Positions 31,943 to 60,554 of a DNA stretch of 64,000 nucleotides are shown here, one piece after another. Origin of the DNA: Hexactinellida sp. DTS-2022 (lineage: Eukaryota; Porifera; Hexactinellida); NCBI GenBank assembly GCA_028753945.1, contig JAPNXP010000003.1, forward strand, positions 5,828,001 to 5,892,000. The letters are read 5' to 3'. How positions within the stretch are numbered: the stretch's first letter is position 1; each line of letters opens with the position of its first letter. The notes beneath the pieces were generated by a model. It searched no databases. It saw nothing but the letters and a program-made list of their open reading frames with translations, and was not told the origin of the DNA. The position numbers were made by a program, and so were the translations under genes.

Positions 31943-34159
31943 TTAATAAACTCGAATCTTGGCATCATCTCGGGTAGTTAAGATTAAATGACCGACTTCT
32001 GACACCAACATGTAATCCGGTTCGAAGTTTATTTTCCCTCTCGTTCGGACGTTTTCCAGCGACAAGTCCATTATATAAATATGCCCGGATTGGTACACAT
32101 ATACGTTATTGAATACGTCAATGGTTAGGAGGGTTCGCGAACTCTTTGGCTTAGTAGGCGCTTGCACTTGGGCAGGAATTGTTAGGGAATTCGGTTTGTT
32201 TGAGGTCTTGCTTTTGCCTCGTAATGTTTCGGATCGCTGAAGAGGTTTAGCGTTTATAGGTACCTTTGAGGAACTTGCTACACGCACTGTTGTTTCAGTT
32301 CTGTGATCCGCAAACTTGAATTCTTTCAGTTCCTCGCCTTTCGGACTAAATCGCTTTATAATAGGCTTAGTATCAGACACGTAGTAAATCTCCCCAAATG
32401 AGTTGCATCCGATTTGAAGGTTTGAGTAGGGCTGGTGCGGTTTGGGAATATGCTCCGGGGTGATGCATTTCGGGGGAAATGAAATAAATCCGAAATTCTC
32501 CGAACTCGGATCAGGGGTAGAACATCCATGAGAACTCCGCTTTACAGTTGGCGTGTTAGGTACCGTAAGTTTTGTAGAATGGTAGATTTCAAATTGGTTT
32601 TCAAGTTTGCTATCTGATGTATAAACCTCGATCATATGTTTGTCCTTATTGTACACGATAAATCCCTCTCCTTCTCTCCCAATAACGTTGTATGGATCTA
32701 ACATTACTGAACCCATACTAGCGTCGCCTGAGATAGAGCTGTGAATGCGACCGTTGGATATGGCTTGGAATTGCTTTATGCCTCTGTCTACTATAAGCGT
32801 AGTGCCATCGGGCGTTACGTTGAAATGGGAGATATTTGTGTACTCGTCAAGTGAGGTCAGCGACTCTAGCAATTTGTTGTTCTGTAAGGGAAGAAAAAAG
32901 CTGTTTAGACGAAGAATTGAGTTTGCTTTTGAATTCTTTTTCTGCGCACTTTCGTGAAGCAATAGTTGCATATCTCCGCTAGCGGTTTTAGCCATTCCAG
33001 TTATTTGAAATTGAAATGGAAGTTTAATTTTCAAGTTTAAGTCGATGGTAAATTTCGGACTTTCAAATCCAAGCGGGAAACGAAAGGCTAGTTTTCCAAT
33101 GCGTAGAGGATCGTTCACGAATTGTGCGTCTTTGCTAAATGTGAATTCTAACGGATTCAGGTCAGTGGTAATCGTGGCTCTCACTCGCTCTAGTTTATCC
33201 ATTTTATTGCAGAGAGCGACTGCTGGGGGAAACAAATGGGTGCCTGGAAGATCGTTGAGATAGAAAGAAGACATTTCTAATAAATGGTTTGATTGTTTGG
33301 CGAAGTTATTTTGAGACTCGATTGCCTTTTCTATTTCCGTCCGTCTGTTCGCGAACACTTTTCTTATCGAATTAGTCAGCTGATTTTTTCGCTGTGTCAA
33401 CTGTTCAATGTGATCCTCAAAATCTTTGTTTATTTTATTCAAAATATCTTGTTCTTGTTTAGTTATTTCTCCAACCATTTTTTTCAAACGCTCATTTTCT
33501 GAAAATGTAGTATCGACTTTTGATTTATGTTCGCATTGTCTTTGAATTACCATTTCTCTCCTTCCATGGAACATAGAGTTCATTTCATTCGCGTAGCAGG
33601 GATCTTCCATATGGCCACCATGCGCACATTCAGTGCACAAAACTACATTACATCTATAGCAGTAGAACTGTATTAGTTTCTCCGGATGTTGTTTGCAATA
33701 GTTCATTGTATTTTCTGGGATTAGCTTGAATATGTTGTTGTAGTCTTGTAGATATTCAAGTTTGAATATTTCATGTTCGTCTTTTGTTGCTTTTTTGTGC
33801 ATTTTTGAATCGTGAGGGCAAATAATGAATTTGCATTCGCGACAGTATTCTGTTGCTGGATTCTTCTTACAGAGATCGCATTTGGAATGGCCTGGTTTTA
33901 CACTACCCATTATCGTTCTTATTTTAGCCAAATCTTCAAAACTCCCATTGCTATAATGCTGGGGCATTCCATTCGATTGAATCTCAAATTTTTCTCTACA
34001 TACAACGCATTTCGGGTCATTTCCCTTACTCATGTTTGTGATACAACTCAGACAGAATGTGTGTAGACAGTTGAGAATATACGGGTCGACATAGGGCTGA
34101 TTACAATTCCTGCAGTCTCCGACGTTAAATAAATGGTACTGATCCAATTTATCAGACAT
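31943..34159 (-). CDS. TRIM-like protein: RING, two B-boxes, coiled coil, C-terminal propeller-like region
   Basis: Single-exon 738-aa frame. RING finger C3HC4 uses C16, C19, C31, H33, C36, C39, C51 and C54. A degenerate B-box1 lies at about 91-131 (CDLCKK, CRECKFIICPHD) and B-box2 at about 155-190 (CKQHPEKLIQFYC, CTECAHGGH). A Lys/Glu-rich coiled coil follows (about 200-310). The remainder is beta-rich and resembles a degenerate NHL-type propeller, with a Ser/Lys-rich insert near residues 640-680. RING-B-box-coiled-coil proteins are usually E3 ubiquitin ligases; the substrate here is unknown. The protein is related in layout to the gene at 56917-59193, with which it shares strand, size and lack of introns, suggesting an intronless TRIM family in this genome. 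The start codon is the first Met before the RING, and no in-frame Met lies upstream within a plausible leader. Confidence 0.88.
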   Translation of the reverse strand: MSDKLDQYHLFNVGDCRNCNQPYVDPYILNCLHTFCLSCITNMSKGNDPKCVVCREKFEIQSNGMPQHYSNGSFEDLAKIRTIMGSVKPGHSKCDLCKKNPATEYCRECKFIICPHDSKMHKKATKDEHEIFKLEYLQDYNNIFKLIPENTMNYCKQHPEKLIQFYCYRCNVVLCTECAHGGHMEDPCYANEMNSMFHGRREMVIQRQCEHKSKVDTTFSENERLKKMVGEITKQEQDILNKINKDFEDHIEQLTQRKNQLTNSIRKVFANRRTEIEKAIESQNNFAKQSNHLLEMSSFYLNDLPGTHLFPPAVALCNKMDKLERVRATITTDLNPLEFTFSKDAQFVNDPLRIGKLAFRFPLGFESPKFTIDLNLKIKLPFQFQITGMAKTASGDMQLLLHESAQKKNSKANSILRLNSFFLPLQNNKLLESLTSLDEYTNISHFNVTPDGTTLIVDRGIKQFQAISNGRIHSSISGDASMGSVMLDPYNVIGREGEGFIVYNKDKHMIEVYTSDSKLENQFEIYHSTKLTVPNTPTVKRSSHGCSTPDPSSENFGFISFPPKCITPEHIPKPHQPYSNLQIGCNSFGEIYYVSDTKPIIKRFSPKGEELKEFKFADHRTETTVRVASSSKVPINAKPLQRSETLRGKSKTSNKPNSLTIPAQVQAPTKPKSSRTLLTIDVFNNVYVYQSGHIYIMDLSLENVRTRGKINFEPDYMLVSEVGHLILTTRDDAKIRVY

Positions 34160-36105
34160 TTTGAAACTTTAATATTAACTATATGGCAATTACTTCACAG
34201 TTGAATTGTATTATAAATAACTAAGCTCTATTTATACCTAACAGTTGTGATTATACACTAATGAAAAGTAACCTGATTTAAGACATTAATTAACCAAAGT
34301 ATAGATTAATATTTCTAGGTAATATAGCAACTAATTATTTTTAGTGAATTGATTAATGGAGGTGTTTCAACTAAGTTGTGTCTAATTGAATTATGATATA
34401 TTTCGTGGTTTTAATTAAAAATGATCATGGAAGTTGTATATAGAATAGTCCAAAAGTTGTATAAAATAGTTTTACTTCTACAAATGAAAACATGTGGTAC
34501 ACATTACAAGAAATATATTCAAAACATGTACGTATATTTGTTTGGAAATATGATTTGTTTATAATGAATAAATTTAATTAAGAGTTTGTTTCTGTCTCTA
34601 CCATATTTCGACAAAGCAAACATTTGTGTCGCCAACATAGCAGCAATTCGTGATTATCAACTAACTTGTTGAATTTTTATTACTTGTGAATTTCCTACCA
34701 AAAAGATTAATATACATGTGATCGCGATAACACATTTTTACCGAGAATTAAATCAGGTGCTATTAAATTAGTGTGGAGGTTTCCAGCTGTGGAGATGCTT
34801 GTTCATGTGTTCACATGCACTTGCTATTTCGTATGTATTTTGAGAGCATTTATACTGTACTATAGGTTATACTATTGAGAATATTTTATGACACAAATAA
34901 TGTTTAATTCGATCGATATTAGTTGGATCTGAATACGATTGCAAAACTTGTAACAGAATTTATTTAACATGCAATACGCATTATTTAGTTTTTAGTAAAA
35001 CTTATTTTCAAATCACTGAGGATAAATTATAGAAATACTTTATATGTAGACCGTCTATTTCTAGACCAGGTTTTCTTGACTTAAGTAGTATTACCCATAG
35101 ACGGCAGGGACTTTTGGTCTACAAAATTCTACAAATACATTCAGGTCTGCTTATAGTGAACAATTTTTCGTCTGCTTAATAGGAAGTTTTTTAATTATGA
35201 ACAATTCCTATGGTCCCAATTAGCAACTTACATAGGGTTTGTATAAAGTTGAGTTTGATTATTATGAAGTCTCTCTACTATGAACATAATTTTTGGTCTC
35301 TTGAACGTTCATAATAAAGAACCTGACTGTATTTAGCTTAGTTTGTATGGGCTTTTATAAGGCTCTAAATTATTCTAAAGTTTGTTTATAGTTATGAGTT
35401 CTGTATTAACTAGTTAAGATAACTGGTTAATTAGAATGTATTATTGATATTATACACGATTATAATTTGTATTGCCTCTTGTTCAAGACAGATTGATACC
35501 TCAATTAATTTAGACTAGTTAATCAATTGAAATTATTCGCTTGTTTTAGTTGCAATTTTTGCTCTTCAAATAGTGTTCTGCTAAGCGCTTTGAGAATAAA
35601 ATTTTATAGAATCTAGAGTCACGTTATTGAACTTATGCTGGATTCTGTTACTCAATAATCTGCTGACTGTAATAAGTCTAGCAGAATTTGAAACCTCGAG
35701 CCATTTAATGTCTCTTAATAATATTGCTTGTAATCTAATAATACACTATTCAATCTCATGGTATAACTGCTCTACATCATGAGGCGTAATCTATATTATA
35801 AGAATATTCAATTAAGTAATTATCTCCTATCGAAACATTAAAATACTGAATGGATGTGATTCTTATTCCTGAAGATGTCTTAACATATTGGAATTTAACA
35901 TACGTAAATCTAAACGCTTTTTGTGTCTGTTTGTTAATTAAACCATGGATTAGCAGGCAGAATTTCACGCAGTAGACTCTCATTTAAATAAACACGGATA
36001 AGGAGAAATATCGGTTAAGGAATTATTTATTTGTATTGTTTATTAATTATTTATGAGCTTGCTCAATAAACTAAAGGAATACGCGTTAAAGTGCTTGAGT
36101 GCAAT
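34160..36105. other. Intergenic, AT-rich
   Basis: Upstream region of the TRIM gene at 31943-34159. Apart from the MITE at 35142-35331 I see no gene or repeat. Confidence 0.5.
35142..35331. mobile_element. CAGGTCTGCTTAT-family MITE
   Basis: CAGGTCTGCTTATAGTGAAC start and AAGAACCTGACTG end; core GGTTTGTATAAAGTTGAGTT. Confidence 0.75.
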
Positions 36106-36464
36106 ATGTAAGTACGGACTAGCAGGTTGTAGTAATAAATTCATTTTTAAACACATTGTAACAAATGTATTAACGTTGAATAACCAAAGGGTTAACCCTC
36201 AAATTAAAACACCTATGCTTATGAGCTAGCACTTAATTGTTTGCATTTCCACATTGAAACTAATTTGAGAGGTAAGTTAAGACACATTGAGAGGTAAATG
36301 TCAATAAAATGCTTGTTACACCAATTAATCCCTTCATTTATTTGTCCAATTATATTGTTAATAATACTAGGTACCAAAGCTTATTTAGAGGCTTACCCCC
36401 TATGTAGTATAGCATCGAGTTAAATACTAGACGAATACTCCAATAACCTATAGTGAACATATAA

Positions 36465-36512
36465 CTAACCCATACTGAAATATTCAAAATATATTGGAGT
36501 ATATAAATAGAT
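36465..36512 (+). promoter_or_regulatory. U6-type promoter upstream of U6-derived repeat array
   Basis: Plus-strand AACCCATACTGAAATATTC, TTGGAGTATA and TATAAATA stand in the same order as at the U6 gene, with about 29 bp between TATA and the GTATAGC that opens the U6-like sequence. Confidence 0.55.
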
Positions 36513-36906
36513 TTGAATAGTTTCTATATTGTATAGCTAATCATAAAATTGGAACATTATAGAGAAGATTAGGCAGGCATCTCTATCGTAAAATTGGAAC
36601 ATTATAGAGAAGATTAGGATGGCATCTCTATCGTAAATTGGAACATTATAGAGAAGATTAGGAAGGCATCTCTATCGTAAAATTGGAACATTATAGAGAA
36701 GATTAGGCTGGCATCTCTATTGTAAAATTGGAACAGTATAGAGAAGATTAGGCTGGCATCTCTATTGTAAAATTGGAACAGTATAGAGTAGGCTGGCATC
36801 TCTATTGTAAAATTGGAACATTATAGAGAAGATTAGGCTGGCAAGCCTGGCATCTCTATCGTAAAATTGGAACAGTATAGAGAAGATTAGGCTGGCATCT
36901 CTCTTT
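36513..36906 (+). repeat. Minisatellite of about nine 46-bp units derived from U6 snRNA
   Basis: After a GTATAGC start, units containing TAAAATTGGAACATTATAG and AGAAGATTAGGCTGGC repeat about nine times, separated by a short ATCTCTATYG linker. The block corresponds to the U6 segment around the ACAGAGA box, here changed to TATAGAGA. One unit is shortened near 36785. It is a U6 pseudogene core amplified in tandem, not a working snRNA. Confidence 0.8.
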
Positions 36907-37379
36907 GTACCATTTGGTGAGTGTAGCCTCGTTGATGTTAAATAACACCAGTGACGTCCCTTCTAAGTTCTAACAGTTCTTCATTATTAGGACACGTATT
37001 TAGGTTCCCGTGTTGGATATTAAATTTTAATATATGTAAGTACGGACTAGCAGGTTGTATTAATAAATTGATTTTTTAACACATTGTAACAAATGTATTA
37101 CCGTTGAATAACCAAAGGGTTAACCCTCAAATTAAAACGCCTATGCTTATGAGCTAGCACTTAATTGTTTTCATTTCCACATTGAAACTAATTTGAGAGG
37201 TAAGTTAAGACACAGTGACGGTAAATGTCAATAAATGTTGTTACACCAATTATTCCACTCAATTTATTTTGTCCAAAAATATTGTTTATAATACTAGATA
37301 CCAAAGCTTATTTTAGAGGCTTACATTGAATTAACTAATTTTAATACTATACTCCATAACATATTGAAACATATAAATA

Positions 37380-37500
37380 ACCCATACTGAAATAATTCAA
37401 AATATATTGGAGTATAAATAAACTTGAAAAGTTTTTAGAATTGTATAGCACTTTGCTATACAAATCATAAATTGGAACATTACAGAGAAGATTAGCATCA
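37380..37500 (+). pseudogene. Truncated U6 snRNA pseudogene with promoter
   Basis: The PSE-like block and TATAAATA (30 bp before the start) precede GTATAGC-loop-GCTATAC, then ATTGGAACATTACAGAGA and AGATTAGCAT. U6 homology ends after AGCAT, so the internal stem-loop and 3' end are missing. It lies in the second copy of a roughly 430-bp segment also present at 36106-36540. Confidence 0.75.
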
Positions 37501-38274: not shown

Positions 38275-38574
38275 CTTCAAGCGCCCCCCAGATCCCCAGC
38301 TAGTGACGCGCTGTTATATACAATCACAACCCCGCTTATGAGTCATGACAAATCCTGGAACGCCCTGGATTCTTTCAACTAATTAGTTTACTAAGGTAAT
38401 AAAGTACGTATTATAGACGTCTTAATTCAGATTCAGCCCAAGGGGAGAAATAATTCTAAAATTATAGCTATACCGACATATTCAATATTCATACCTGCCA
38501 AACTATTCGAAGTAATATTCCTGTACGGGCACCAATTTTCTCTGTACATTGGTCAAAATCCCTGTACACGACGA

Positions 38575-38902
38575 AATGTCCGGGACGAAATGTCCAAGCG
38601 ACGAAATGTCCGGGACGAAATGTCCGGCGACGAAATGTCCAAGCGACGAATTGTCCAAGCGACGAAATGTCCAAGCGACGAAATGTCCGGGACGAAATGT
38701 CCGGCGACGAAATGTCCGGCGACGAAATGTCCAAGCGACGAAATGTCCGGCGACGAAATGTCCAAGCGACGAATTGTCCAAGCGACGAAATGTCCGGCGA
38801 CGAAATGTCCGGCGACGAAATGTCCGGCGACGAAATGTCCGGCGACGAAATGTCCAAGCGACGAAATGTCCGGCGACGAAATGTCCAGCGACGATGTGTC
38901 CG
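38575..38902. repeat. GACGAAATGTCC minisatellite, about 22 units of 14-16 bp
   Basis: Units share GACGAAATGTCC and differ in a short linker: AAGC, GGC or GG. Two units have GAATTGTCC. The array is CpG-rich within AT-rich DNA and open in several frames on both strands, which yields spurious frames (DEMSG repeats) that I do not annotate as genes. It starts directly after a fragment of the CATACCTGCCAAC MITE family. Confidence 0.9.
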
Positions 38903-40945: not shown

Positions 40946-40954
40946 TTGCAAAAA

Positions 40955-41003
40955 AAAATTAGGAACGCTTCACGATTATGCGTGTCATCCTTGCGCAGGG
41001 GCC

Positions 41004-41043
<40 letters not shown>

Positions 41044-41059
41044 ATAGCCGAAGCTATAC
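40955..41059 (-). ncRNA. U6: U6 spliceosomal snRNA
   Basis: The complement of this segment reads as U6: a 5' stem-loop (GTATAGC, TTCG loop, GCTATAC), then ATATACTAAAATTGGAACGA, the invariant ACAGAGA box followed by AGATTAGC, GGCCCCTGCGCAAGGATGAC, and a GCGTTCC 3' segment running into a T9 stretch (plus-strand A run 40950-40958) that serves as Pol III terminator. All catalytic blocks known for U6 (ACAGAGA, AGC triad, internal stem-loop) are intact. The 5' stem sequence differs from the usual animal GTGCTTGC version on both sides, so pairing is kept. About 105 nt, the normal size. This is likely a functional gene, unlike the U6 fragments at 36.5 and 37.4 kb. Confidence 0.93.
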
Positions 41060-41072
41060 AATAAATATACTT

Positions 41073-41165
41073 TTTAAAATATATTTATACCCCAACATAT
41101 TCTGAATATTAGAATATGGGTTATTAATAAGTTCAATATGTTTTGGAGTATTGTGGTTGTGTATT
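41073..41165 (-). promoter_or_regulatory. U6 type-3 Pol III promoter (PSE, TATA and upstream block)
   Basis: On the minus strand a TATAAATA box (plus-strand 41082-41089) begins 30 bp before the U6 5' G. Immediately upstream is a PSE-like block containing AACCCATATT, AATATTCAGAA and TTGGGGTATAA, and further up a conserved ACAACCACAATACTCC segment. The same blocks at the same spacing occur before the hairpin loci at 42.6 and 44.5 kb and before the U6 fragments at 36.5 and 37.4 kb. This repeated co-occurrence defines the local snRNA promoter. Confidence 0.8.
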
Positions 41166-41465: not shown

Positions 41466-41612
41466 ACAATGACCTGTCACTGGAAATTGGTCCCCGAAAA
41501 AATTGGTCTGGGGGACCAAAATTCCATGGAAAATGGTCCTAGGACCAGTTTTGCATGGAATTTTGGTCCCCCCGACCAATTTTTTCGGGGCACAATTTTC
41601 CAGTGACGGGCT
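41466..41612. mobile_element. Near-perfect palindromic MITE
   Basis: GTCACTGGAAA and TTTCCAGTGAC close a palindrome about 140 bp long. The arms carry CCCCGAAAAAATTGGTC and TTTTGGTCCCCC blocks, and the centre is GGTCCTAGGACC. A fragment of the same family is at about 42800-42855. Confidence 0.8.
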
Positions 41613-42605: not shown

Positions 42606-42645
42606 ATTACCTGTCACAATCACAGTACATATGTGCTCAGGTAAC
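42606..42645 (-). ncRNA. Putative U6-promoter-driven hairpin RNA (copy 1, shortened)
   Basis: The minus strand starts GTTACCTG and ends CAGGTAAT, forming an 8-bp closing stem; the interior keeps TACTGTGATTGTGA from the 3' arm of the copy at 44.5 kb, but most of the 5' arm and the loop are missing. The same promoter precedes it, with the TATA first T (plus 42675) 30 bp before the G. The first downstream T4 on the minus strand is at plus 42522-42525. This is either a derived, shortened gene or a decayed copy. Confidence 0.4.
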
Positions 42646-42654
42646 AATCTAAAT

Positions 42655-42785
42655 ACTCTTCCAAATCTTTTTATACTCCAATATTTTCTGAATATTTAAA
42701 TATTGATTATTTAGATATTTCAATAGGTTGTGGAGTACTATGGTTGTCTTACTTGTCTATGAATTTATTAATAATATCACCCGAT
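42655..42785 (-). promoter_or_regulatory. U6-like PSE+TATA promoter of hairpin copy 1
   Basis: Minus-strand TATAAAAAG at plus 42667-42675, PSE-like AATATTCAGAA and TTGGAGTATAA just upstream, and the ACAACCATAGTACTCCACAA block beyond. About 180 bp here (42600-42785) is duplicated at 44525-44720. Confidence 0.5.
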
Positions 42786-44491: not shown

Positions 44492-44528
44492 TACAAAATT
44501 TTAAAGACAAAGAAATTCTTGAAGGTTC

Positions 44529-44591
44529 GTTACCTGTCACAATCACAGTATGCTAGCAAATGCCTAGCATACTGTGAATGTTTCAGGTAAC
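44529..44591 (-). ncRNA. Putative U6-promoter-driven hairpin RNA (copy 2)
   Basis: The segment is an inverted repeat: two 28-nt arms (GTTACCTG at the tip, CACAGTATGCTAG at the base of the loop) pair at 25 of 28 positions around a 7-nt loop. On the minus strand it is preceded by a TATAAAAAG box whose first T is exactly 30 bp before the hairpin-initial G, and by the same PSE block as the U6 gene. The first T4 run downstream on the minus strand (plus 44495-44498) would end a transcript of about 97 nt. Size and stem resemble a pre-miRNA-like hairpin, but no expression evidence exists. An alternative is a short snap-back element that landed by chance in a U6 locus copy. Confidence 0.55.
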
Positions 44592-44611
44592 AATCTTAAT
44601 ACTTCTCCAAA

Positions 44612-44705
44612 TCTTTTTATACTCCATTTTTTTCTGAATATTTAAATATGGGTTATTTATATATTTCAATAGGTTGTGGAGTACTATGGTTGTCTATGAA
44701 TTTAT
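44612..44705 (-). promoter_or_regulatory. U6-like PSE+TATA promoter of hairpin copy 2
   Basis: Minus-strand TATAAAAAG lies at plus 44613-44621. The PSE-like block upstream carries AACCCATATT, AATATTCAG and TGGAGTATAA, as in the U6 gene at 41 kb, followed upstream by an ACAACCATAGTACTCCACAA block also found at 42.7 kb. Spacing to the hairpin G is 30 bp. Confidence 0.6.
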
Positions 44706-45308
44706 TAATAACATCACATACCCCAACCAACTTCCTATTCAAGGCTAACAAGTAACAAGAATACAGTGCAATTGGTAAGGAGAGTAGTTTTTGGTGACCC
44801 TATACTTGGGTGGCGAGCTTACAATATAGAATGTTGCAGTATACTTTAGTAGTTCAGTCTAGTATAGTGAAAATGATATGTAGAAAATGACAGCATTTTC
44901 TTTGGGGGAAACATGTTAACTGTCAAACCAAAATATAATGTAGTGGCTCCAAAAAGAAACTACCGTATAATGATACATAGTACTGCATACTCATTAATTT
45001 ATATGAGAAATATTATTTTGTTGATAAATGCGGAAACGAAATTGAAGTAATGACTAGCTTACAAAAGTATAGAGGTAACTAAGTTTGTAGATTAGTAGTC
45101 TAGAAATAACTAAGTTACTAACTAAACATTTAATACGAATGAGCATTTGAAATTAACCAATAATTCCCAATATAATGCTAGGTATAATATCCTTAGTAAA
45201 TCTCATATTTGCTGACAGTACAAATAATATACTTGTGACAATAGGTAGAAACACAATCCATCTGAACAAAGGCATAATTAAATTAGAAATAATCTGTTAG
45301 TTGAGAGA

Positions 45309-46520
45309 ATGGCAGCTGTTGAGGTCGGTTTGGGTTTGGGAGGTTTTGAGAGATTCGATGCTCTCTCTCAGGAAATAGAAACGAGATTCCAAGAGCTACA
45401 CTCTCTGTTGGAAACAAGGAGAGTTCGGTTGCTGGACAGAGTAAGGGAGATGAAGGAGCTCTGCCAGAAACGCAGACACATAGACAGGTCAATAGAGCAG
45501 ATGGAAGCTGCCATGAGAGCTACGAGCGATGCTATCACTGAGAACTTAATAGCGGCGTGTAAGGAACAGGCTGTTGGATTCTGGACGGATAAGATTAGGG
45601 ATTTGAGGAGGGAAAAAGCGAACTTAGACACTGTTTGTGAACTGAGGTTTGTGCCTAATTCTGTTGAAGTGTCTGCTTGCATTGACAGAATCCATTTGAG
45701 GGATTGTGGAGACGTTGAGTTCAGCAGGAGAAGAGAGCCACTTGTTATGACAGGCAAGAGAGGGGGAAGTGAGGGGGAAATATATATAGCATACGGTATA
45801 GCTGTTGACAGGGAAATTGATATAGTGTTTGTAGCTGATTACTACAAACATTTGATTTCCATCTATTCGATGGAAGGAGACTTCATTAAGAGCTTTGGAA
45901 AGGGAAATCTGGCATCTCCTTATGGTATCTGTCTATTCGAAGAGTTTGTGTTTGTGACTGAAAGAAGTAGTAATTCTGTTGTTAAGTTCTTGAGATCCGG
46001 TGACTTTGTGTGTGCCTCAAAGTCTCAAAACAAAGATACCAAACTAGATGAACCTTCAAACTTGTGTGTACTCAATAAATCGGTCTATGTCTGTGATAGA
46101 AGAAACCACAGAATTGCGTTGTTTAATTTGGATTTATTATTCATTAGAAGTTTCGGAGAATTCACGCTTCGTTATCCAGAAGATATCAAGACCCATAAAA
46201 ATACAATATTTGTATTAACTCAAATGGATAACTCTATTCATACTTTCAACTCAGAACATCGGTTAATCTGCTCTATTCTTCTCACTGGACCTAATTACAC
46301 TAATATCTCCAATGCATTCTCCTTCGCTATAGACCTAAACGGAAACTTCGTTATTAGTGACTTAGCTAAAGGCTGCTTGAAGGTATTCTCTCCCACAGGT
46401 CGATACGTAGACTCGTTAGGAAATGGATACCTAACTATACCACAGGGAATAGCGATAGATAGGATCAATAGAATCGTGTCAATCTGTGAATCTAATTTAA
46501 ACACCTTTCAGATTTACTGA
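45309..46520 (+). CDS. Coiled-coil plus NHL-repeat propeller protein lacking RING and B-box
   Basis: Single-exon 403-aa frame. Residues about 15-115 form a charged coiled coil (FDALSQEIETRFQELHSLLE and following heptads). From about 150 to the C-terminus there are roughly six NHL-type blades, seen in recurring segments such as YGIAVDREIDIVFVADYYKH, SPYGICLFEEFVFVTERSSN, CVLNKSVYVCDRRNHRIALF and IPQGIAIDRINRIVSICESN. NHL propellers bind RNA or proteins and usually sit at the end of TRIM-NHL ligases (TRIM2/3/32/71); here the RING and B-boxes are absent and no upstream frame supplies them. It could therefore act as an adaptor or dominant partner of TRIM-NHL ligases, by inference only. An AATAAA signal is present near 46630, about 110 bp after the stop, fitting a real short transcript. 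Confidence 0.85.
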   Translation: MAAVEVGLGLGGFERFDALSQEIETRFQELHSLLETRRVRLLDRVREMKELCQKRRHIDRSIEQMEAAMRATSDAITENLIAACKEQAVGFWTDKIRDLRREKANLDTVCELRFVPNSVEVSACIDRIHLRDCGDVEFSRRREPLVMTGKRGGSEGEIYIAYGIAVDREIDIVFVADYYKHLISIYSMEGDFIKSFGKGNLASPYGICLFEEFVFVTERSSNSVVKFLRSGDFVCASKSQNKDTKLDEPSNLCVLNKSVYVCDRRNHRIALFNLDLLFIRSFGEFTLRYPEDIKTHKNTIFVLTQMDNSIHTFNSEHRLICSILLTGPNYTNISNAFSFAIDLNGNFVISDLAKGCLKVFSPTGRYVDSLGNGYLTIPQGIAIDRINRIVSICESNLNTFQIY

Positions 46521-56916: not shown

Positions 56917-59193
56917 TTATTCAAGGCTAAATCGATGGAGTTGTCCCTTACTCGAGAGAATGTAAGCTTCCCCGAATGGATTTACAGAGAATGAAACCGG
57001 GTCAATCTTTTCCTGGAGTTTTTCCTTCTTTATTAGGTTGTGTTTGTCGTCAAAAGTTAGAATCTGGTTCCGTCTACAAATGTAGATATTGTCGAGTTTG
57101 TCTGTAGTGATTAACGTGCGTTCAGTTAAAGAGCCAAGGCTAGTTTTTGGTGTCATTGATCTAGCAAGAGGTGACGAAATTCGTTTCATGCTTTGCGATC
57201 GACTTAATCCAGCAGAGCTCAAAGTAGAACTGCTCTTTGGCCTAAAACTAGCGCTATTCGTGCGGGTAATCGGCATTATTTCGCTTTCCAAATGCTTTTG
57301 GTAATCGACTTTATCCAGTTTTTTCCCATTCAGGTTATATGTGGAGAAAGCCGCTTCGTTTTCGTGGGCAATCAGGATTTGGTTTTTAGAATTAGTCGCA
57401 ACGGATTGTGATGGTTTGTTGGTGTTGGATACTTTTCTAGCGACACCAGAGGGAAAAGGCGAACTAGTTCCCGAACGAACGATCCCATTTCCGGTGCCTG
57501 TGAACACACAATCAGGTGAGTTCGTTCGACTCAATCGAGACACAGGTCTCGAATTCGGTCTCGACCCACCCCCTGACGAGTTGCTACTAGTGGAGTTGTT
57601 CCTTTGCCTAGGTGCCTGTACAGTGACATCCTGTACTTGTATTTTCCTAATATGTTCCAACTCCTTATTGTACACATGCAATTGTCCTTGTTTCTGATCG
57701 TATACGATAACGTTATCCTCATGATCGCCCTTTCCTATTAACGATATGCTCGCTGGGTCGATATTTTCATCGTCATTTGTCAACGTTTTGCATTCGTTTC
57801 CTTTCTCATTGACGATTACAACATTCTTTTGCAAACTATCGGTAACTAGGATGTTTCCAGAGGCCATTTTAACCATTTGGTTTGGTCCCCCGATGGATAA
57901 GGGAGGGCTAACTGATTCAACTTTTCGAAGCGAAGCGTCAATGACATGGACATCTTGTGAGCCAATGCTATTATCCGTATTTTTCTGCGATAAAAGCATA
58001 TTTAGATTGTTATCTTCCTGTGCAATGCAATTAAACGTAAAATCGCTTGAATATCCGAAATCGGAAGCAACAAGAACCTCAGATGCCTTACTAAAATCAG
58101 GGGCCAACATTCGGGTTATTTTACCAATCTTATTCATTTTCGATTCTAGCTCCTTAGTTTCAGAACCTGGCATTTCGAATTCGATATTATGGACTTTCAA
58201 TTCGCGTTTCGGGATGGATTCCTTCAATGTATGTAGGCGCGCGTTTATTATATTGGAAGTGGAGAAAAGGTAGTTGGTTGGAAATAGGCCTAATGAAGCG
58301 TTATAGTAATCCTTGGCATCAGCAAGTTTGCTTGTGAACACATCAATTGTTGATACGTGATTCTTAAATAAAATCTCTTGGGATTCGAAATGGTCATTAA
58401 TTTGCGTTTCAAAATGTTTCCTCCTGGCTTCAAATATGTCGGTGAGGCGTTGAAATCTCGCATTCATTTGGTTTATGATATTTTCTTTCGAAATTCGGAT
58501 TTGTTCCAACATATGGATAAGTTTTGCCCTGTTTTTTTCATTTTCGTTTCCATCTTTTTCTGCTTTTTCGAAATTAGCATTGAGAGTGTTAAGTAGCGCA
58601 TCCTCGGATTCTTGTATCTTTTTAACGTTATGGCTATTGTGTTCCAGAGTACCACACCACTCGCAACAAGCAAGGTCGCATTTCGGGCAGTAGACGGATA
58701 CATCGAGGTTCCTATGTTTGTTGCAGAAAATCGCAGGTTTAGGCGGCAGAAGTGAGCTTAGCAGACTGTAGCTTACTTCGTCAAGAGATTTAACTTGATG
58801 AGTAGTATGAAATCTCAAGTGTGCATTTTTGTCGAATTCGCAAAGGAATAATTGACAGTTAATACAATAGGCAATGGCTTTGAGGGATTTTCCATCGGTT
58901 TCTTCATACGTGCAATTCTCACAGTGAATTGAGTCCGAGTTGAGTGCGATTTGTTCCAAAGCGTTTTGTACTCGAGTAATAGTTGCGTATGGTAGATGAT
59001 TCGGTAAGCTATCAATTAACTTATGTGATAACTGATGTGATTCCCCACAGTTTTTGCATATAATTGTGTTTTCTGATTTTAGTGAATCGTGTAAACACTC
59101 ACTACAGAATACGTGCAGGCAATTCAAGGATTTGGGAGATCGATATGCATTATTGCAAATTGAACAACGATTTTCTTCAAAATGTTTTGACAT
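56917..59193 (-). CDS. TRIM-like protein: RING, two B-boxes, coiled coil, propeller-like region with Ser-rich inserts
   Basis: Single-exon 758-aa frame. The RING is at the N-terminus (C10, C13, C25, H27, C30, C33, C46, C49). A B-box1-like module lies at about 91-131 (CENC, CINCQLFLCEFD). B-box2 is at about 157-190 (CNKHRNLDVSVYC, CCEWCGTLEHNSH). A coiled coil runs from about 195 to 310. The C-terminal half is beta-rich, with repeated hydrophobic blade-like segments (for example near DNIYICRRNQILTF), broken by Ser/Pro/Arg-rich low-complexity stretches at about 535-600 and 640-690. It is a probable E3 ubiquitin ligase by family. Same layout as the gene at 31943-34159, but sequence identity is low outside the zinc ligands, so they are old paralogues at best. 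The Ser-rich inserts look like disordered, possibly phosphorylated loops. Target and localisation are unknown. Confidence 0.88.
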   Translation of the reverse strand: MSKHFEENRCSICNNAYRSPKSLNCLHVFCSECLHDSLKSENTIICKNCGESHQLSHKLIDSLPNHLPYATITRVQNALEQIALNSDSIHCENCTYEETDGKSLKAIAYCINCQLFLCEFDKNAHLRFHTTHQVKSLDEVSYSLLSSLLPPKPAIFCNKHRNLDVSVYCPKCDLACCEWCGTLEHNSHNVKKIQESEDALLNTLNANFEKAEKDGNENEKNRAKLIHMLEQIRISKENIINQMNARFQRLTDIFEARRKHFETQINDHFESQEILFKNHVSTIDVFTSKLADAKDYYNASLGLFPTNYLFSTSNIINARLHTLKESIPKRELKVHNIEFEMPGSETKELESKMNKIGKITRMLAPDFSKASEVLVASDFGYSSDFTFNCIAQEDNNLNMLLSQKNTDNSIGSQDVHVIDASLRKVESVSPPLSIGGPNQMVKMASGNILVTDSLQKNVVIVNEKGNECKTLTNDDENIDPASISLIGKGDHEDNVIVYDQKQGQLHVYNKELEHIRKIQVQDVTVQAPRQRNNSTSSNSSGGGSRPNSRPVSRLSRTNSPDCVFTGTGNGIVRSGTSSPFPSGVARKVSNTNKPSQSVATNSKNQILIAHENEAAFSTYNLNGKKLDKVDYQKHLESEIMPITRTNSASFRPKSSSTLSSAGLSRSQSMKRISSPLARSMTPKTSLGSLTERTLITTDKLDNIYICRRNQILTFDDKHNLIKKEKLQEKIDPVSFSVNPFGEAYILSSKGQLHRFSLE

Positions 59194-60554
59194 TGAAATG
59201 TTTTTGATTTTTGATTCTTAAACCGTTGTGTATTAGTATTTATACTTTTTGAATGGGCTGTTTCATTATAGGATAATAGCTTTCTGTAGACAATACACAG
59301 CCAGAATAAACTACAACAAGCTTGCGTATACAGTGTCCTTATGTCAATATAAATCTGTGTACACTTTCATAATTTGTGCTAAGGAACCTATTCTAGAAAG
59401 TAATTTAAATTGCCAAGATCCATTTTGCGTTTTTAGGTTACTGTTGTTTGTGTAAAATTAATAATTATACATTGAATCCAAGAGTTATCAAGGAGCGAAA
59501 GACGCTCCTTTTGGAGCATGATTTAGGAAAATTTGAATTTAGGACTCTTATTTCCTACTCTTATACTTCTTTATTTATTCACTTCTTTATCTACTCATCT
59601 CTTTTTTTCTGTTTCTTATTGGTACTATATTTAGTTTTTGAAGTGCCTAAGCCTTCTCAGGCAGTACTTTCTGTAATTGTACTTTTTTTCCTTGCACAAA
59701 TTATAATAATAATAATAATACAATGATTTAATCTAATTTAATGTTTGATGTAACTATTTATGTTGCATAACAAAAATAATGTATAAGGCTTACAATCTCG
59801 ATTATTATATAATAGCATCGACCTGATATATTAATAATTGTGAAAAATTCTAAATTTGTAAATATTTCATGCATCAGTTTTGATAATATAGTACAGTAAT
59901 CATGAACTAATCATATACAAATTAGTGTACAAATTTGGTTGTATATTCCTTAATTCTGGCGTAAACAATTTGAACTAAGAATCAGTAGTTGTAAATGTCA
60001 TTGCTTTCTTATTAAATTCTAGTTAAATTGAACGTAAAGTCAATCTTTCTATTCAATATACCTAAAATTAACTTAGAAAGTATGCTATAGAATTACCTAA
60101 CATTCAGGTTTAAACACAAGATTCGGTTACAGATATCCTCTAAATAAACTAATAAGTTTCTTGAATCATGTCTCACTGCAATATCTACCTAGATTTATCA
60201 GCAATAAAATATTGTATTCGCCTGTATTAAATTGTCAGGTGAATTTAGGTTCAAACACCTTTATAGAAAGGCTGAATTAGTTATAGGGTTATTATAATAT
60301 TATAGTACTTTACAGTCCATAATTATGCAAGTGTGAGTACATCGGTTCGATTTGCAGGTATTTGAAACTAATCATATTGTGTTTAGTTCGTGTGTATAAC
60401 ACATATGACTTTTAAATCTTATTATTATTGAACTTAATAATGATGCTAGTTGCACTTACTTTTATAACTTTTGACCCATAGGGTTCTTGGGTAAATTGAA
60501 TGATGAATCAAGTGATGGATCAAATGGTGCATTATTTTTAACAAGTTTCAAATA

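Follow-up and report, generated by a model that had tools for sequence, protein, structure and literature searches.

Probable endogenous Pol III short-hairpin RNA genes behind U6-type promoters in an animal-like genome

What kind of RNA would come from a gene whose U6 promoter is so placed that the transcript should begin with the base of a hairpin, as in laboratory gene-silencing constructs? The window, by which we mean the whole 64,000-nt stretch of DNA that was analysed, includes a locus with this layout (copy 2 in Table 1), and the original prediction was that it specifies a small structured RNA, possibly a Dicer substrate made by Pol III. The first part of that prediction, a structured RNA under a U6-type promoter, is now well supported by five loci that keep hairpin and promoter at the same spacing. 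We conclude that these are probably endogenous Pol III short-hairpin RNA genes, which probably, though not demonstrably, feed Dicer.

Table 1. Features of the two hairpin loci and of the U6 gene used as promoter reference (positions in the window)
Feature	Positions	Strand	Remarks
Hairpin of copy 2	44529..44591	-	5' G at 44591 = predicted +1
3' tail of copy 2, to first T4 run (+94 to +97)	44495..44528	-	predicted Pol III transcript end
TATA box of copy 2 (-30 to -23)	44614..44621	-	
PSE-like element of copy 2 (-65 to -43)	44634..44656	-	20-21/23 identical to both U6 genes
Upstream part of shared promoter (-104 to -66)	44657..44695	-	includes AACCATAGTACTCC
Hairpin of copy 1, shortened, 40 nt	42606..42645	-	stem ends and 21-nt stretch of 3' arm kept; z -2.2
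TATA box of copy 1 (-30 to -23)	42668..42675	-	
PSE-like element of copy 1 (-65 to -43)	42688..42710	-	
U6 snRNA gene, promoter reference	40954..41059	-	RF00026, 114.8 bits
TATA box of window's U6 gene (-30 to -23)	41082..41089	-	
PSE-like element of window's U6 gene (-65 to -43)	41102..41124	-	

The hairpin of copy 2 and its promoter

The geometry first proposed for copy 2, including a TATA box 30 bp before the hairpin, is correct in its coordinates and numbers. Two arms of 28 nt, with 25 of 28 positions paired (89% complementary), enclose a 7-nt loop, 63 nt in all, and there is no large internal loop. The minimum free energy is -38.8 kcal/mol over 63 nt (z -9.59), and none of 200 shuffles was as good. 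Of 20,000 stretches of 63 nt drawn at random from the 64 kb, 2 reach a fold as good, and the draws may include the locus itself or other inverted repeats. The TATA-like box TATAAAAA has its first T at 44621, which is -30 relative to the G that starts the hairpin. The first T4 run is at +94, where it had been expected, so the transcript would be about 97 nt long if Pol III stops there, and in a fold of 102 nt the tail is unpaired.

The stretch of promoter shared before the copy 2 hairpin is about 105 bp long. The nearby gene to which it had been likened is indeed a U6 gene (Table 1), and the match to its promoter holds at 78.1% over 114 columns (E 9e-21); the promoter of a second U6 gene, on contig C15, gives 84.9% over 106 columns. 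Four promoter strings had been quoted as common to copy 2 and the nearby gene, of which two stand and two are only approximate in the window's U6, which has GGGGTATAA for GGAGTATAA and ACAACCACAATACTCC for ACAACCATAGTACTCC. The name PSE for the element at -65 to -43 is carried over from snRNA promoters generally. Over this stretch copies 1 and 2 and the two further copies on contigs C3 and C1 agree with either U6 gene at 18-21 of 23 positions, and in the TATA box at 7 of 8; for the copy on C4 the figures are 19 of 23 and 5 of 8. The hairpin family has in this way both the upstream PSE and the TATA near -30 that characterise type 3 (snRNA-type) promoters. The copy 2 promoter contains an inverted pair at 44620-44683 (-), made up of TACTCCA, near -90, and TGGAGTA, which overlaps the TATA box; of seven aligned promoters four have both parts intact, those of copies 1 and 2, the C3 copy and the C15 U6 gene.

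U6 and vault RNAs are both made by Pol III, and the promoter of the hairpins was also found before U6 genes and vault-like genes. A genome-wide PSE pattern allowing up to 3 mismatches had 36 matches against 10 for the reversed control. Thirty of the 36 were examined, and TATA is directly behind the PSE in nine. Four of these are hairpins, the C4 hairpin being the one with a degenerate box; two are U6 genes, two are truncated U6 units and one is a new locus. Two units already known, at window 37350 and in a fragment on contig C11, escape the pattern with their shifted spacing, so this listing is incomplete. The new locus is a tandem pair of vault-like RNA genes on contig C12, about 16 kb beyond the window (L084 1520-1860), scoring 26.0 and 22.6 bits against the Rfam Vault model, below its 34-bit cut-off. 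Each gene of the pair stands behind the PSE and TATA of the hairpins and has a T run right after its closing stem.

In the case of the two U1 genes the upstream element is different from that of the hairpins and U6, and at -30 there is AATAAATA, one letter off the TATA box, so that the contrast between TATA and no TATA for Pol III and Pol II is weak here. The presence or absence of TATA as polymerase selector at SNAPc-dependent promoters is the topic of PMC6004067, to judge from the portion available. The two U1 genes are divergent, about 0.9 kb apart at C7:726263-727447, and by eye have the same body and the same 140 bp upstream.

There are other U6-derived units in the window. At 36436-36902 (+) some eight 45-bp units from mid-U6 (ATTGGAACATTATAGAGAAGATTAGG..GGCATCTCTAT), each with a short self-complementary stretch, stand in tandem behind a U6-type promoter, the array being a U6-derived satellite under its own promoter. 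Truncated U6 units with PSE and TATA are at window 37350-37498 (+) and at C3:3269944-3270005 (-), and by eye they have a 5' stem-loop unlike that of U6 yet able to pair. The window also has a tandem array of 15-bp units of the CGACGAAATGTCCGG type (38569-38902), and long single frames for TRIM-like proteins with RING and B-box, one with NHL repeats, at 31943-34168 (-), 56917-59217 (-) and 45282-46520 (+).

A family of five loci

The genome searched is a 112-Mb assembly of 18 contigs, with the window on C12, and the queries were the whole unit, the promoter and each arm (22-mers with up to 3 mismatches). A search for further loci with PSE, TATA and hairpin, which had been proposed as a check, found five hairpin loci on four contigs: copies 1 and 2 on C12, and C3:4986271(+), C1:16138440(-) and C4:4161141(+), referred to here by their contigs. 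The searches score the best candidates and a more diverged copy could escape. Hairpin and promoter are at constant spacing in each locus. Counted from the conserved G, the TATA-like box has its T at -30 in all five, the box being TATAAAAA in four and TGTAAGAA on C4, and by this spacing the foot of the hairpin is at the predicted +1 in five of five.

The arm searches gave 5 and 4 matches, all inside the five loci, with 0 for the reversed controls, and at up to 3 mismatches in the arms no hairpin without the promoter was found in the 112 Mb. A MITE or other dispersed repeat, which had been named as one finding that would overturn the prediction, is rejected on this count of five loci in the genome at up to 3 mismatches, each with its promoter. 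A pattern requiring the exact stem matched C3 alone, as its spacer limit was 45 where copy 2 has 46, and the other copies have differing stem ends or are interrupted. An exact 21-mer had 0 matches in viral contigs. A strong inverted repeat at window 41473-41610, with 50-nt arms that are 92% complementary, a 15-nt spacer and several sub-threshold matches to Rfam miRNA families, is probably a MITE.

C3 and C1 are 92% identical from -103 to +52, and in some 1.5 kb of sequence to either side nothing else aligns at E up to 1e-3, so that the unit they share is promoter plus hairpin. Copy 2 and C4 share the tail as well, to +91. An insert of 163 bp, which has short inverted ends CAGTGGCGGC and is bordered by the 8-bp direct repeat ACAGTATA, interrupts the C4 hairpin. 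On C11 there is a bare promoter fragment without a hairpin. One hairpin copy and one bare promoter fragment (L004 and L007) both adjoin the same palindromic element, ATCATCGGCGTTTGTATTAAAAAACCTC.

The three long and uninterrupted hairpins, those of copy 2, C3 and C1, fold better than all 200 of their shuffles; C3 and C1 are hairpins of 50 nt with z of -5.6 and -3.7. With its insert left out C4 is a 62-nt hairpin (z -5.1), and copy 1 has 15 base pairs, with 5 of 200 shuffles as good. At gathering score the hairpins match no Rfam family, those for miRNA, U6, 7SK, RNase P/MRP, Y and vault RNAs included. The best sub-threshold scores are 21.9 bits for RF04170 (cut-off 200, opposite strand) and 20.2 for RF03350 (cut-off 106) with copy 2, and 31.1 for RF04010 (cut-off 70) with C3.

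Across four copies (copy 1 left out and C4 without its insert) 20 of 23 positions in the 5' arm and 15 of 17 in the 3' arm are identical. The loop region is variable in sequence and length among these four, and tails are unrelated except in the pair of copy 2 and C4. Conserved arms with a mostly unconserved loop and tail is, as far as these alignments indicate, the pattern of small-RNA precursors. However copy 2, C3 and C1 compared in pairs agree at 21/23 positions of the 5' arm, 15-16/17 of the 3' arm and 83-88/95 of the promoter. Arms and promoter are thus conserved to about the same degree, and duplication in the recent past could be enough to account for the arms without selection on the hairpin. 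On the 15 lower-stem pairs there are no compensatory changes across the four copies; 55 of 60 cells are paired and 5 unpaired, and shuffled 3' letters do as well. The inner stems of copy 2 and of C3 and C1 differ in sequence and length with pairing kept.

The first run of four or more T is at +94 in copy 2, +122 in copy 1, +110 in C3 and +74 in C1. The runs are 23-81 nt past the hairpin in these four uninterrupted copies and none follows it directly. In none of the four would the terminator set the 3' end of the hairpin, in contrast to Pol III pre-miRNAs and shRNAs, and a tail would therefore have to be removed.

What the RNA may be

With regard to small-RNA machinery, the genome encodes a Drosha-like protein, for which the best five chains are named Ribonuclease 3 or Drosha (E 8e-72 to 3e-68, the best Dicer chain being at 1e-17), and a Dicer-like protein in which helicase, Dicer-dimer and two RNase III stretches were recognised, while its PAZ match falls slightly short of the cut-off. 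There are 15 Piwi-domain matches in the genome. Two of the proteins were compared; one is closest to human-type Argonautes and the other to Piwi-like proteins, with 930.8 bits against a Piwi-like protein 1 chain and 846.1 against the Piwi-A chain 7kx7, presumably of a freshwater sponge. It is from the Drosha-, Piwi- and TRIM-like proteins that the genome is taken to be an animal's; no COX1 was found in the assembly. The genes for the Drosha-, Dicer-, Argonaute- and Piwi-like proteins look intron-poor, with reading frames that run on for 802 and 1562 aa and, in six Piwi-domain cases, for 895-1052 aa.

Hairpins of 50-63 nt at the predicted +1, in a genome that encodes Drosha-, Dicer- and Argonaute-like proteins, make a role as Dicer substrate plausible. 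We put at about even chances the fuller proposal that copy 2, as a member of a five-locus type 3 Pol III family, is a natural U6-shRNA-like cassette feeding Dicer. SNAPc and TBP/Brf2 would bind the PSE and TATA, and Pol III would initiate at the G and halt at the first T run, and the product would be a hairpin that carries a triphosphate at its 5' end and a tail at its 3' end. This tail would be trimmed, Dicer would cut about 22 nt from the open end without help from Drosha, and the resulting small-RNA duplex would be loaded into an Argonaute. Copy 1, with its 15 base pairs, is too short to dice. Searched as 22-mers with up to 3 mismatches, the arms showed no near-perfect targets in the genome outside the hairpin loci.

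In a canonical pri-miRNA, Drosha/DGCR8 acts on a stem of about 33 bp that is flanked by single-stranded RNA. In the hairpin family there is no such 5' flank before the predicted +1 and the arms are 28 nt at most, and if the start is as predicted a Drosha cut some 11 bp into the stem would leave too little of it for Dicer. The canonical microRNA path, with Drosha acting first and Dicer second, is therefore unlikely.

The known RNAs from type 3 Pol III genes are for the most part structural, and it would fit with this if the hairpins were stable Pol III RNAs that act by binding protein in an RNP, in the manner of Y or vault RNAs, and not as small-RNA precursors. The same promoter type precedes the vault-like pair, and the lateness of the T runs is in keeping with a transcript of about 77-125 nt. 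However the loop and, outside copy 2 and C4, the tail, in which binding sites might be looked for, are the variable parts, and the hairpin has no large internal loop. The absence of Rfam matches, Y and vault families included, also speaks against this reading, while still being compatible with an undescribed RNA. We give it perhaps one chance in four.

A little less probable, and in our estimate unlikely, is that the family is in decay: U6-promoter units would have been duplicated and have gained an inverted repeat, and would now be mostly non-functional, transcribed or not. Two of the five copies are damaged, copy 1 being shortened and C4 interrupted and with an altered TATA box, and truncated U6 units stand behind U6 promoters in the window and on C3, and C11 has the bare promoter fragment; the lack of covariation is also as expected from decay. 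Against this, three copies on three contigs keep hairpin, TATA and +1 spacing, with flanks that do not align in the closest pair, C3 and C1, and the inner stems of copy 2 still pair where their sequence and length differ from those of C3 and C1.

The stem-loop I of spliced-leader RNAs has a comparable pairing of the leader with a splice-donor-like sequence, and a spliced leader supplies a cap. A spliced-leader-like RNA or U1 mimic was considered here on account of UUACCUG, which is common to U1 and four of the five copies, the 5' end GUUACCUG resembling that of U1 (the genome's U1 match starts UAACUUACCUGG) and pairing with the splice-donor-like CAG|GUAAC, of which CAGGUA is present in all five; but the resemblance was noticed after the fact, C1 has UUACCUA, the middle of the would-be leader varies in length, the conserved leader and shared downstream Sm-type site of such RNAs were not seen by eye, the tails are unrelated except for copy 2 and C4, and a Pol III RNA would be without the cap, so that we regard this as very improbable.

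Relation to known systems

In animals, microRNAs normally come from Pol II transcripts and need Drosha. An animal nuclear genome may here have evolved, independently of plants, a Drosha-independent family of small-RNA genes in which hairpins stand under duplicated U6 promoters and Pol III initiation sets the 5' end; this wider claim we make tentatively, putting it at little more than one chance in three. Were it true, the laboratory shRNA design would also arise in nature, new small-RNA genes could come into being without recourse to Drosha, and the loci would offer a compact system for how a tailed, triphosphorylated Pol III hairpin enters Dicer.

Artificial U6-shRNA cassettes have PSE and TATA, a hairpin from +1 with a stem of about 20-28 bp, and a terminator directly after it. 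The present loci are like them in promoter, in the predicted start of the hairpin at +1 and in stem size, and differ in that the terminator is not adjacent. The metazoan type 3 Pol III genes are those for U6, 7SK, RNase P/MRP and Y RNAs; promoter class and spacing are alike, but the hairpins match none of these in Rfam at gathering score.

Six sequence strings had no match in the literature, and among the literature matches listed, in a coverage that leaves out most subscription journals, none describes a family of hairpins behind U6-type promoters in the nuclear genome of an animal. In the part seen of a table of sponge miRNAs no mature sequence was taken, by eye, as a relative of the arms; xte-mir-temp-46 has a 9-nt run, ACUGUGAUU, in common with the 3' arm of copy 2, which we take as chance.

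Pol III hairpin precedents, as far as the sources extend, are viral, fungal and from a parasitic plant. The view that such a gene would be unusual for animal miRNAs is accordingly fair for animals and needs qualification beyond them, as there are precedents in the U6-like MIRNA promoters of Cuscuta and in the Pol III pre-miRNAs of bovine leukemia virus. A review, in the extract available, names snaR, vault and tRNA genes among the sources of small RNAs derived from Pol III transcripts (PMC10498592).

The pre-miRNAs of bovine leukemia virus, in the text available to us, are Pol III transcripts of compact type II (internal-promoter) genes, and Dicer processes the 5'-triphosphorylated hairpins (PMC4267658). 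The likeness is that the Pol III start sets the 5' end of a short hairpin independently of Drosha, which for our loci is a prediction. The viral genes have an internal promoter and termination sets the 3' end, whereas the loci described here are cellular, with an external U6-type promoter and a tail of 23-81 nt. In Neurospora, again from a partial text, milRNAs rely on Pol III (PMC3547838), and there is the predicted similarity of miRNA-like precursors from Pol III in a cellular genome; the Neurospora case is fungal, with a tRNA-containing transcript and a non-conventional Pol III promoter (PMC3547838).

The interface-induced MIRNA loci of Cuscuta campestris (Hudzik et al. 2023) have a U6-like snRNA promoter. 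There are 156 annotated MIRNA loci with one promoter element common to 93%, and in the portions available transcripts with a 5' triphosphate and poly-T termination are reported, small RNAs and Pol III features being established by experiment (PMC10745700, PMC10226582). Cuscuta is a plant with 156 loci and proof at the RNA level, whereas we have five predicted loci in an animal-like genome. The two systems are alike in being natural hairpin-RNA genes behind an snRNA upstream element, with Pol III spacing and with many loci under one element.
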